This document shows positions 8,121 through 14,710 of a stretch of 43,056 nucleotides of DNA, piece after piece. A model generated the notes under the pieces. The model ran no database searches. It saw nothing but the letters and a program-made list of their open reading frames with translations, and was not told the origin of the DNA. The first letter of the stretch is position 1; every line of letters begins with the position of its first letter. A program made the translations under genes and the position numbers. This stretch comes from Desulfobacula sp. (GTDB taxonomy: Bacteria; Desulfobacterota; Desulfobacteria; Desulfobacterales; Desulfobacteraceae), in assembly GCA_021647625.1 (NCBI GenBank), contig JAKIUJ010000010.1:1-43056 (forward strand), read 5' to 3'.

Positions 8121-9224
8121 ATGGCCGCAACTTACGATTTAGTTATCATCGGCTCAGGCCCCGGGGGGATTGCCGCAGGGCTTCTGGCCAAACAACAGGG
8201 CAGGCCTTTTATTATATTAGAAAAAGGCGGCCACGCCATGCAGGGCATTATTGATACCTATCCTAAAGGGAAAAAAGTTTACCCCACCATACCCAAGCGC
8301 TATCCGGATCCTTTTCCGGTTTTGGACATTAAACCGCCGGATGAAAAAATTCCTGTGGAAGCCTATGTTGACCAGGCAAATACCGTTATTAAAGAAAACG
8401 ACCTGGCTGTTCATTATAATGAAGAGTTCAAACAGATAGAGGGACAGTTTCCGGATTATATTGTAAAAACCGATAAAGGATCTTATCTGACAAAAAATAT
8501 TATCCTTGGTTTTGGCAGCAACATTCCCAATGATCTTGGTATTTACGGGGAGGCTAAAACCGTTGCCAGAAATATTGAAAATGGTGAGGATTATATTGGT
8601 ATTAATGTCCTGGTTATTGGCGGCGGGAATGCCGCAGCCGATGTGGTCTGCTCTCTATCCAAAATCAAACGTGAAGCCAAAGACCATGACACCTCGGTCT
8701 ATTGGGCACATATAAAAGAAACCTTTGAAATTAACAAAGACACGGCCCGTGACCTGGGAGAAGAAGTTCTTTTGGGCGGCCATATAAAAATTTTGCAAAA
8801 AGCCATCCCAAAAATCGGAGAAGTCGATGCCGACGGGATTGATCGTCTATATATTCATCAAACCACCTCATCTGTCATGGGAAATGATCTGTATCTGTAC
8901 CAGGGAATGAGTTTTCCTATGAAAAATGTCATCGCCTGCATCGGAACCCATGGGCCTTCTGCTATTTTTGATGCCCTAAACTTACAGCAAATCACCTGTA
9001 CCGGTGCCATTTGCAAAATTGCAAAAGAGGGTGAGCGACTGTTAATGCTGTCGGACAACCTTGAAACCAGTCGTCCGGGAATTTATGCCATTGGCGGCGC
9101 AATAAGCCCATCTTACATGGAGATCGGTTCTGACGGGATTATCAAAGAAAAAAAACATTCCAACCTTATTTATACGGCTGTCCTGGATGCCCAGACTGCC
9201 ATGAATAAAATTGTAAAAGAATAA
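8121..9224 (+). CDS. FAD/NAD(P)-dependent oxidoreductase, thioredoxin-reductase-like without CxxC
   Basis: 367 residues; AAGGAG lies 10-12 bases before the ATG. Residues 6-20 (DLVIIGSGPGGIAAG) are the FAD dinucleotide fold, VLVIGGGNAAADV (about residue 163) is the NAD(P) fold, and RPGIYAIGGAISPS near the C-terminus corresponds to the second FAD motif. No CxxC redox pair is present, so it is not a classical thioredoxin reductase. The layout resembles the YpdA-like or ferredoxin-NADP reductase-like branch. It precedes the ArsR-permease pair in the same direction, but a promoter separates them. Substrate unknown. Confidence 0.75.
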   Translation: MAATYDLVIIGSGPGGIAAGLLAKQQGRPFIILEKGGHAMQGIIDTYPKGKKVYPTIPKRYPDPFPVLDIKPPDEKIPVEAYVDQANTVIKENDLAVHYNEEFKQIEGQFPDYIVKTDKGSYLTKNIILGFGSNIPNDLGIYGEAKTVARNIENGEDYIGINVLVIGGGNAAADVVCSLSKIKREAKDHDTSVYWAHIKETFEINKDTARDLGEEVLLGGHIKILQKAIPKIGEVDADGIDRLYIHQTTSSVMGNDLYLYQGMSFPMKNVIACIGTHGPSAIFDALNLQQITCTGAICKIAKEGERLLMLSDNLETSRPGIYAIGGAISPSYMEIGSDGIIKEKKHSNLIYTAVLDAQTAMNKIVKE

Positions 9225-9238
9225 GTTTCCTTTTTTTG

Positions 9239-9286
9239 TTGACTTTGCCATCCATTCATTCTAACATATGAGCAATTGTTCATATG
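9239..9286 (+). promoter_or_regulatory. ArsR/SmtB promoter and operator
   Basis: TTGACT (9239-9244), 17-base spacer, TAACAT (9262-9267). An inverted repeat spans 9265-9286: arms CATATGAGCAA and TTGTTCATATG, one mismatch. It lies over the -10 and the start of transcription and has the TGA/TCA-centred form of SmtB/ZiaR-type operators, so it is likely the binding site of the repressor encoded just downstream. Confidence 0.75.
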
Positions 9287-9298
9287 AAGAGGTGATAG

Positions 9299-9643
9299 AT
9301 GGATATTTGCGTAGAAAAATGCATTAATGAAAAAAAAGTATTAGAAACAATCAAAACGATTCCTCAGCCAGAAATTATCAGTTCAATGGCGGATATTTTC
9401 AAAGCATTGAGTGATCCCACACGGCTCAAAATTGTCCTGGCACTTTTAAAGCAGGAACATTGTGTCTGTGACATTGCAGTCATTTGCAACCAGACAGATT
9501 CAGCCACATCCCACCAGCTCCGGATTTTGAGAACACAAAAAATTGTAAGAAACAGACGGGATGGAAAAATCATGTATTACACCATTGATGACGATCACGT
9601 TGCCGCATTAATCAACATGAGTCTTACCCACGTCCAACATTAA
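9299..9643 (+). CDS. ArsR/SmtB-family metal-responsive repressor
   Basis: 114 residues; GAGGTG lies 5-6 bases before the ATG. The winged helix covers residues 28-100 (SSMADIFKALSDPTRLKIVLAL, TDSATSHQLRILRTQKIVRNRRDGKIMYY). Likely metal ligands: C4 and C8 in the N-terminal arm, C55 and C57 in the HCVCD motif of the DNA-binding helix (the ArsR/CadC alpha-3 position), and H100 plus H111 in the last helix (alpha-5 type). Members of this family leave DNA on binding As, Cd, Pb or Zn. The site upstream suggests autoregulation and control of the permease that starts 23 bases after the stop. Confidence 0.88.
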   Translation: MDICVEKCINEKKVLETIKTIPQPEIISSMADIFKALSDPTRLKIVLALLKQEHCVCDIAVICNQTDSATSHQLRILRTQKIVRNRRDGKIMYYTIDDDHVAALINMSLTHVQH

Positions 9644-9665: not shown

Positions 9666-10739
9666 ATGACTCTAATATATGAAATTTTGAAAGAATCCTG
9701 GTATATCTATCTGGATGTTGCCATTTACATGCTCTTCGGCTTTTTTGTGGCCGGAATCCTGTATCTCTTTTTTAAAGCAGACAAGATTAAGCAATACCTG
9801 GGCACTGGAAAAGTCAGGCCCGTCATCTTATCCGCCCTGTTCGGCATTCCAATCCCATTGTGTTCCTGCGGTGTGGTGCCTGTTGCCACAGGATTAAAAA
9901 AACAAGGGGCTAACAGCGGCGCGGCGCTTTCATTCATGATCGCAACGCCCGAATCCGGTGTTGATTCCATTGCCATTTCCTGGGCCATGCTCGACCCTAT
10001 CATGACGGTTGTCAGACCGATAGCAGCTTTTATCACCGCAGTTGCAACCGGTATTGCACAAAATTTTTTTGGCACAGAAGACGCTCCCCCCCCCTCTATC
10101 CAAAAGCCCGGTGGTGGCTGAGGGTGTTCAACCGATAGCTGTGCAGACGTACAGCCAGATAATGAAACACTCATTGCCAAGCTAACCCGCGGAATGAAGT
10201 ATGCCTATGGCGAATTGTTGACAGACATTGCCAAACCTTTTGCCGTGGGTATCCTGATTGCCGGCATGATCACCTTTTTTTTTCCCGAAGATCTGACCCT
10301 CTGGGCCAATGATCACCGATTTTTATCCATGCTGGTCATGCTGATTGCCGGAATTCCCATGTATGTATGTGCCACCTCCTCCACCCCTATTGCAGCAGCA
10401 TTGATATTAAAGGGGCTAAATCCCGGCGCCGCTCTGGTTTTCCTACTTGCAGGACCGGCCACCAATGCAGCCACCATCAATATAGTAAAAAATTTATTTA
10501 ATACAAAGGCATTATTTATCTATCTGACCATGATCTCACTGTGTGCCTTGGTTTTTGGGTTTATTGTAGATATGATCTATGATTTATCCGGCATCCAGGC
10601 CAATGCCATTGTTGGACAGGCAGGAGAAATTTTCCCCGAGAGTATTCAATTGATTGCCGCAGCCATACTCACAGGCCTGATTATTTTCAACTGGGTGGCA
10701 AGACTAAAACGATCGCCGGAACACGCTCATTCTCATTGA
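9666..10739 (+). CDS. COG0701-type permease, predicted selenoprotein (Sec-152)
   Basis: Reading the TGA at 10119-10121 as selenocysteine joins two frames in the same phase into one protein of 357 residues, the usual length of ArsP/YraQ-like permeases (COG0701, UPF0718). The first half has the family motif FGIPIPLCSCGVVPVATGL and GAALSFMIATPESG. The second has MYVCATSSTPIAAALI and GAALVFLLAGPATNAATI. The Sec lies in the central loop as GGGUGCSTDSC, where relatives often carry cysteines. No other stop occurs between TGA and the next ATG (10194). A hairpin with SECIS geometry follows (10138-10155). About eight membrane segments are expected. The downstream half alone would lack the first transport motif. 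Controlled by the upstream ArsR repressor. Confidence 0.8.
10119..10176 (+). promoter_or_regulatory. SECIS-like element for the permease Sec codon
   Basis: UGA at 10119-10121. Hairpin GCTGTG (10138-10143) and TACAGC (10150-10155) with loop CAGACG, 23-28 bases after the UGA, the distance of bacterial SECIS apical loops. A lower stem can form between GGGTGTT (10122-10128) and AACACTC further down (G-U pair included). Confidence 0.6.
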
Positions 10740-11321
10740 CTAAATCCGCCCCCTCATGTCCATATCCACGAACCAGAGGGTGGTATCGGCAAAGATATGA
10801 AGCACATCACTGCGCCCCATGGCATTCATCATTAAATGGGAGACAACGGTTGAATCCTTACCCCCGGAAAAAAAAACCATGGTTGTTTTTCCATGATAAG
10901 ATGCTGCGGTTTGACGGATAAAATCCTCAACTTCATATTGCAGATTTTCAATATACCCCTTGTTGGCCTGTCTCAAGGCGGTAAGGCATTTTTCCAACGT
11001 CCGGTTCAAGGGTTTTAATGACTTGCTCTTCTCCAACTTTTTTGCATTGCCATTGGCCGCCGTCAGCTTGGCAATGGGCACGCCCTGGCTAATAGTAAGT
11101 GCAATTTCTGGGTGAGATCCAGATTTCCCCCTCTTTTAAAAGCGGATGGATCTCCGGGTCAATCTGTTTTTTCAGGTATTGAATCTCCGGCCTGAAGACC
11201 GGGACTAAAGTTGCTGAACAAATATCCCTGCCCTTCGATCCACAGGAAAGACAATGGTCTTTTAAAGGGGTACGTGACAGATATCACACCACCAGGTTCT
11301 CTTATTTTTTTTGGGGTTCAT
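10740..11321 (-). pseudogene. PAPS-reductase-family protein, decayed
   Basis: Pieces in three frames add up to the N-terminal half of an archaeal-type PAPS reductase family protein. MNPKKNKRTWWCDICHVPL starts at 11321, with an ATGA overlap to the stop of the upstream gene. Then come KDHCLSCGSKGRDIC (zinc-finger cysteines), VPVFRPEIQYLKKQ and WISPRNCTYY, and finally GVPIAKL to FFSGGKDSTVVSHL (PP-loop ATP pyrophosphatase) and FADTTL. Frame breaks occur after HVPL (near 11265) and after TYY (near 11093). The C-terminal half after FADTTL is missing, and the remnant abuts the permease stop. Non-functional as written. Confidence 0.72.
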
Positions 11322-13657: not shown

Positions 13658-14710
13658 TTGAAACTGTTTAAGAAAAAAACCCTCACCGGATTAGCCCGGA
13701 CCTGCGGTTGAGCGGCAAAAATCGGTCCGCAAGTTTTGTCGGACGCTCTGAAAGGGCTTGTCGCCCCTGATGATCCCAATCTTTTGGTTGGATATGACAC
13801 AGCAGATGATGCAGCAGTCTATAAAATCTCCGCTGAGGCTGCCATGATCAACACCATCGATTTTATTACCCCGCCGGTTGATGATCCTTATTGGTTTGGC
13901 CAGATAGCTGCTGCCAATTCCATCTCTGATATTTATTCCATGGGGGGAAAACCATTAACAGCATTGAATGTGGTCATGTTCCCATCTAAAATTCTGGATA
14001 CAGGTATTTTAAGGGATATACTCAAGGGGGGGCACGATAAAGTCACCGAGGCCAGAGCCGTACTTGCCGGTGGTCATTCCGTAGATGATGAAGAACCCAA
14101 ATACGGGTTATGCGTGAATGGCATTGTTCACCCGGAAAAAATCTTGTCAAACGCAAGTTCACAAGCAGGTGATGCACTTGTTTTAACAAAACCCATTGGT
14201 TCCGGCGTCCTGTTTAATGCTGTTCGTTCGGGTAAACTGCCTTTTACTGATCTGGAAAAAGATGTTTTACTTACTGTTGCTGCATTAAATGACAAGGCCA
14301 TGGAATCGGCACTTGAATATGATATTCACGCCTGTACAGATGTCACGGGATTCGGCATTATGGGTCATCTTATGGAGATGGCCATTGGCAGCAGCAACCA
14401 ATTTATTATTGAATATGCAAAACTTCCCTTCTACCCATATGCCGCTGAGATGTATAAAAAAGGAGAAACCACAGGCAGCAACAAAGCCAATCAAACCATG
14501 GTTCATGCCAACCAGTTTGAAATCCAAACCTCATTAACCCAGGTTGAACAAAACCTGTTGTACGATCCCCAGACGTCCGGGGGGTTGATTTTCTCATTAC
14601 CAAATGAAACCGCAGACAAATTAGTTTTGGATCTAAAAAACAATGGTGTAACAGATGCTGTAAAAATAGGAAGCGTTTCCAAAGATCTTCCGGGTATTGT
14701 TCTGGTATAA
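13658..14710 (+). CDS. selD: Selenide, water dikinase SelD, itself a predicted selenoprotein (Sec-18)
   Basis: SelD makes selenophosphate from selenide and ATP for Sec-tRNA synthesis. The region after the in-frame TGA is a full SelD: DPNLLVGYDTADDAAVY, IDFITPPVDDPYWFGQIAAA, SISDIYSMGGKPLTALN, VLAGGHSVDDEEPKYGL, DVTGFGIMGHL and DPQTSGGL. Upstream in the same frame the sequence reads LARTCG-TGA-AAKIGPQVL. This places Sec (13709-13711) at the catalytic Cys17 position of E. coli SelD, with the essential lysine three residues on. The start is the TTG at 13658 with GGAGG four bases upstream, giving 350 residues with Sec at 18. A shorter frame starting at 13736 would lack the catalytic residue. Confidence 0.88.
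13709..13744 (+). promoter_or_regulatory. SECIS-like element for selD
   Basis: UGA at 13709-13711. Hairpin GTCCG (13725-13729) with CGGAC (13740-13744), and inner pairs CAA/TTG around a GTT tip. The tip is 22-24 bases after the UGA, the same distance as in the permease gene. Confidence 0.6.

Follow-up and report, generated by a model that had tools for sequence, protein, structure and literature searches.

We report that a permease gene in a stretch of DNA from the sulfate reducer Desulfobacula sp. (assembly GCA_021647625.1, contig JAKIUJ010000010.1, positions 1 to 43,056; the whole 43,056 nucleotides are referred to here as the window) contains an in-frame UGA at codon 152 which, judging from sequence comparison, is almost certainly decoded as selenocysteine (Sec). 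Taken together, the evidence somewhat favours the interpretation of this protein as an SO_0444-family selenoprotein that exports soft metals and consists of two inverted repeats connected by a Sec-containing linker.

The gene comprises 357 codons with a single internal TGA, and its terminal stop is also TGA. As stated in a first-pass annotation made from the sequence alone, the two halves (9666-10121 and 10194-10739) share one phase, and the reading frame confirms that 24 open codons separate the internal TGA from the next ATG. Each half matches the ArsP_1 domain (PF03773), over profile positions 6-129 and 176-293 respectively, and the joined product gives one match spanning positions 9-293 with a score of 160.3 bits. 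The joined permease scores 379.3 bits against the SO_0444 Cu/Zn efflux model (NF033936), above its cut-off of 300, and the separate halves score 186.5 and 186.4, both under that cut-off. Searching solved structures with the permease by phmmer returned no credible relative (best E 0.052), and Foldseek returned no match at E <= 0.001. The closest relative among the matches listed in the genome scan is a locus from a Desulfobacula metagenome-assembled genome, with 78% identity.

Relatives of the permease were found at E <= 0.001 in 91 of the 97 genomes searched, its own genome counted. The homolog set consists of 220 loci encoding 202 distinct proteins, 199 of which are at least 280 residues long; 18 identical proteins and three shorter fragments (L054, L080, L081) were left out. 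Sampling partly favours TGA, as ten TGA-flagged matches were fetched alongside ten others, and the counts in these 199 homologs are therefore not frequencies in nature; one genome scan, whose loci are among the matches listed, searched with two patterns, one of them PLCSCGV, and is thereby biased against USC. Among the 30 best loci (window counted), the loop around residue 152 carries TGA in 25 and a Cys codon in the other five (L022, L023, L034, L035, L043). The UGA of the window permease thus aligns with Cys in homologs. Cys or UGA in this column is what the first-pass annotation had proposed to look for, and the pattern supports its placement of Sec in the loop GGGUGCSTDSC, where Cys154 and Cys159 follow downstream.

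Within the whole set, 40 of the 199 homologs have a TGA in the loop, as does the fragment L054 outside the set. The 199 proteins contain 68 in-frame TGAs, of which the loop accounts for 40, residue 66 for 25 and other places for three, so that 65 of the 68 fall at two Cys sites. One of the three exceptions is in the broken gene L075, which is also included in the 25 proteins with TGA at site 66, and the others lie near the C-termini of L137 and L203, where they are probably true stops overrun by our script. Since the TGAs concentrate at two Cys sites across homologs, we regard Sec as the only sensible reading.

The second site, residue 66, opens a CSC motif (residues 66-68) that is invariant in all 62 aligned rows if Sec is counted as Cys. 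Both sites carry Sec together in five proteins (L045, L048, L050, L052, L186), and 19 homologs carry Sec solely at residue 66, in the form PLUSCG (L059, L064, L104, L114, L130, L141, L143, L158, L160, L161, L185, L190, L192, L193, L198, L202, L204, L205, L206); L161 belongs to a named strain, Desulfopila aestuarii DSM 18488. A self-complementary GCTGCCGGCGGCAGC or a near form of it follows the UGA in about half of these 19 homologs. The linker itself varies: the distant relatives L181, L199, L200 and L201 have a different Sec motif, GCGUP, in L139 and L186 Sec precedes a CSCG stretch, and L069 and L072 carry UGGGCACG. These three forms may represent separate Cys-to-Sec changes. In the phylogeny reconstructed with FastTree (198 rows, L075 excluded), which we read for leaf order and change counts, genes with Cys are interspersed among loop-Sec genes, and the minimum number of changes is 11 at the loop and 17 at site 66, both being rough figures that pool gains and losses. 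Linkers without either Cys or Sec are found in 7 of 118 cases in the non-Sec group, as counted from the 172 linkers that our script delimited (27 of the 199 were skipped).

The UGA is followed by a hairpin of the bacterial selenocysteine insertion sequence (bSECIS) type, the existence of which had been noted in the first pass with a 6-base loop at nucleotides 23-28 after the UGA; in the minimum-energy fold one more pair is closed, leaving a 4-base loop, AGAC, at nucleotides 24-27 with G as its second base. The fold z-score of the 57-nucleotide stretch is -3.5. According to the passages of a 2026 review that were available to us, the apical loop of a bSECIS lies 16-37 nucleotides after the UGA and has a G within its first two positions (PMC13188914). 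The window hairpin conforms to this rule, though the base after G is A instead of G or U. Hairpins of this kind occur in 28 of 40 loop-Sec genes versus 11 of 30 loop-Cys genes, and at site 66 in 22 of 25 Sec genes versus 20 of 45 Cys genes (sampled from 163); the mean fold z-scores are modest (loop, -1.01 for Sec versus -0.27 for Cys; site 66, -0.65 versus -0.06). In the alignment of the 40 loop-Sec sequences, stem pairing holds in 66.8% of cells, and the numbers of paired cells and of cells with two-sided changes, as well as the covariation score, were each matched by none of 500 shuffles. Neither the number of pairs showing two-sided changes (reached by 55 of 500 shuffles) nor that of pair types (422 of 500) is exceptional, and a slide by -2 is nearly as good (0.191 versus 0.216). 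A different hairpin register, CACCUGC-GGU-GCAGGUG, is present in e.g. L031, L032, L036, L037, L046 and L091, and the counts are therefore lower. At gathering thresholds, Rfam gave no match across the window.

The host possesses tRNA-Sec (76.4 bits, anticodon TCA, i.e. UCA), SelB (344.7 bits, above cut-off) and the selenophosphate synthetase SelD, whose gene lies within the window and scores 351.8 bits to TIGR00476. The presence of selD nearby had been recognized before, without its own UGA at codon 18, the position at which SelD carries Sec or Cys; the frame starts at TTG 13658, the UGA context is LARTCGUAAKIGP, and a plain open reading frame (ORF) call shortens the gene to 13736. By eye, only selD and the permease were recognized among the TGA-interrupted long frames of the window, with no family search on the others. 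The absence of selA, selB or selC had been named in the first-pass annotation as evidence against Sec, and in part this objection stands: tRNA-Sec and SelB are there, but SelA was not found in the draft genome of the host. An assembly gap is the likely cause, since the draft, split into 332 contigs, has a completeness of 92.86%, and SelA is present in all 25 of the other genomes searched.

The occurrence of Sec in this family is not new. In the part of the review seen by us, a table lists the SO_0444 Cu/Zn efflux transporter (NF033936) with the motif UxC, one Sec and the protein WP_014809615.1, as GenBank annotated, and SO_0444 is named among transporters predicted to contain Sec (PMC13188914). 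The earlier impression that this is not an established selenoprotein family therefore falls: the family is already catalogued as Sec-containing, and the window permease adds a member. The listed UxC, which is based on annotation and not on experiment, fits both the loop (UGC) and the CSC site (USC). Neither the two Sec sites nor the double-Sec members are mentioned in those passages, and searches limited to open-licence papers found no paper on them, which is weak evidence of absence. The same searches turned up no work on Sec in SO_0444 apart from this table row and one sentence of the review, and the text of PMC9312934 contains none of the words 'efflux', 'permease' and 'ArsR'.

Export of a soft metal or metalloid by the window permease is likely, in line with the soft-metal chemistry anticipated in the first pass. 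In the mechanism that we propose, tRNA-Sec and SelB would decode UGA 152 with the aid of the downstream hairpin, as the comparisons strongly support, and the resulting permease of two inverted repeats would export soft metal ions, probably by an elevator-type movement. The invariance of Cys66, Cys68 and Cys235, the alignment of the two repeats and the structural model point to these three residues as the probable transport site, close to where two pseudo-symmetric helices begin. The linker containing Sec152, Cys154 and Cys159 is probably cytoplasmic, and its selenolate and thiolates could capture or relay a metal ion; we consider the chances that Sec152 is a metal capture ligand to be about even. 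Expression would be controlled at an inverted repeat by a CadC-like repressor, which, judging from its ligand pattern, would turn the genes on as Cd, Pb, Zn or a similar metal rises. A broader and more tentative proposal is that Sec has been taken up repeatedly at two functional sites, by conversion of CSC into USC and in the capture linker, and sometimes at both, where it would act as a transport ligand and not as a redox catalyst.

The nature of the cargo is addressed by the regulator encoded directly upstream of the permease. Control by ArsR had been suggested, and a regulator of the ArsR family does adjoin the permease, but it looks CadC-like, with an N-terminal CxxxC, a CVC motif and a C-terminal His pair, and not like a plain arsenic sensor. 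Among solved structures its best relative is Lmo1102, with an alignment that spans residues 2-106 and includes both N-terminal Cys and CVC; regulators of this type go by the name CadC, and the Cys and His residues presumably serve as metal ligands as in CadC and SmtB. The regulator is encoded at 34 of the 40 loop-Sec loci (E <= 1e-15), and of these 34 proteins 33 retain Cys at position 4, 29 at position 8 and all at positions 55 and 57, while His100 and His111 are kept in 33 each. At 12 loci with Sec solely at residue 66, the regulators keep Cys4, Cys55 and Cys57, and Cys8 is absent in 11 and kept in one, a contrast with the loop-Sec loci that may be explained by relatedness. The combination of N-terminal CxxxC and CVC would point to sensing of Cd, Pb or Zn over arsenic. 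As an alternative to Cd, Pb, Zn or Cu, a metalloid or organometal cargo (As(III), Sb(III), Hg or methylated forms) appears rather unlikely, given the CadC-type four-Cys pattern with its conserved His pair and the fact that, of two relatives with fitness or induction data, one responds to Zn and Cu and the other to Cd and Cu. The inverted repeat just upstream of the regulator is probably its operator; of 24 loci, 8 (window counted) have a similar repeat just upstream of the regulator gene, two have a different palindrome, and 14 have none at threshold.

We also considered a redox role, in which Sec152 would pair with Cys154 or Cys159 in a selenenylsulfide, gating or sensing transport instead of binding cargo. 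This is distinctly unlikely. It is consistent with the presence of Cys two residues after Sec in 30 of the 40 loop-Sec proteins and with a flavin adenine dinucleotide (FAD)-dependent oxidoreductase, whose best NCBIfam match is the disulfide reductase YpdA at a score under the cut-off, encoded upstream at 10 of the 40 loop-Sec loci (at least 79% identity to that of the window, window counted). However, the other 10 proteins lack this Cys, and the four with the GCGUP motif have no Cys within 15 residues past Sec, although one stands just before it. Moreover, the oxidoreductase gene sits beyond the inverted repeat and is seen at a minority of loci; its link to the permease is uncertain. On the other side of the permease gene, ending beside its stop on the opposite strand, a short frame (10740-11081) with weak matches to nicotinamide adenine dinucleotide (NAD) synthase and 3'-phosphoadenosine-5'-phosphosulfate (PAPS) reductase looks like a fragment.

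Features of the window discussed in the text, in order of position.
Feature	Position	Strand	Remarks
FAD/NAD(P)H oxidoreductase	8121-9224	+	upstream of inverted repeat
Inverted repeat, probable operator	9265-9286	+	CATATGAGCAATTGTTCATATG
ArsR/SmtB-family metalloregulator, CadC-like	9299-9643	+	C4, C8, C55, C57, H100, H111
SO_0444 / ArsP_1 family permease	9666-10739	+	357 residues, UGA read as Sec at residue 152
CSC motif	9861-9869	+	residues 66-68
In-frame UGA, Sec152	10119-10121	+	inter-repeat linker; UGA or Cys in close relatives
bSECIS-type hairpin	10138-10155	+	7 pairs (10138-10144 with 10149-10155), loop 10145-10148
Cys235	10368-10370	+	invariant in 62 rows; aligns with residue 66 in half-versus-half comparison
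selD, selenophosphate synthetase	13658-14710	+	UGA at codon 18 (13709-13711)

If the UGA were a real stop, there would be either two separately made subunits or a distinct gene for the second half, with the ATG at 10194 as a possible start of that half. This is highly improbable, as Met occupies this position in 9 of the 40 loop-Sec proteins, the other 31 having Leu, Ile, Phe or Val, and homologs with a Cys codon run continuously through the same place. The ratio of nonsynonymous to synonymous change (pN/pS) is 0.15 before the UGA, 0.52 between the UGA and the ATG and 0.25 after it (31 comparisons, with synonymous sites near saturation), and by this measure of the sequences coding constraint extends beyond the UGA through the codons leading to the ATG. 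No intact homolog ending at the UGA position was seen, though not systematically, as proteins shorter than 280 residues were dropped. Sequencing error or gene decay, for which only the draft state of the 332-contig genome speaks, has a negligible probability. We reject split gene, pseudogene and sequencing error alike because 40 distinct proteins share the loop TGA and nearly all in-frame TGAs lie at the two Cys sites.

The selenoproteins that are understood are mostly redox enzymes. Where a transporter has Sec in place of an invariant Cys, and one genus offers close homologs of both the Cys and the Sec kind, the contribution of selenium to metal transport could be addressed directly, and the occurrence of Sec at two different places among relatives makes this family a good test case. 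If Sec is indeed a transport ligand at both sites, soft metal ions would pass through these proteins along a path lined with selenols. Gene finders that stop at UGA would break pumps of this kind into two pieces, which is what happens in the plain ORF list for the window.

With regard to known systems, the window permease falls within SO_0444, the cut-off of which it passes. The SaoE efflux transporter (NF040736), presumably a component of a Sec-linked system, is a related permease, but the score of 168.7 bits against its model is far under the cut-off of 325. The whole-length domain match is common to ArsP_1 permeases (PF03773, COG0701), among them ArsP, an organoarsenical exporter; the window permease instead scores above the cut-off for SO_0444. 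ArsB and other proteins of the ion transporter superfamily show 10% identity, and ArsB is reported to bind As(OH)3 mainly via hydrogen bonds from polar residues, whereas the family of the window permease has invariant Cys in both repeats. CadC, an ArsR-family repressor that senses Cd, Pb or Zn, is partnered with the CadA ATPase. The window regulator has the four-Cys pattern in common with CadC, but it adjoins a permease and not CadA.
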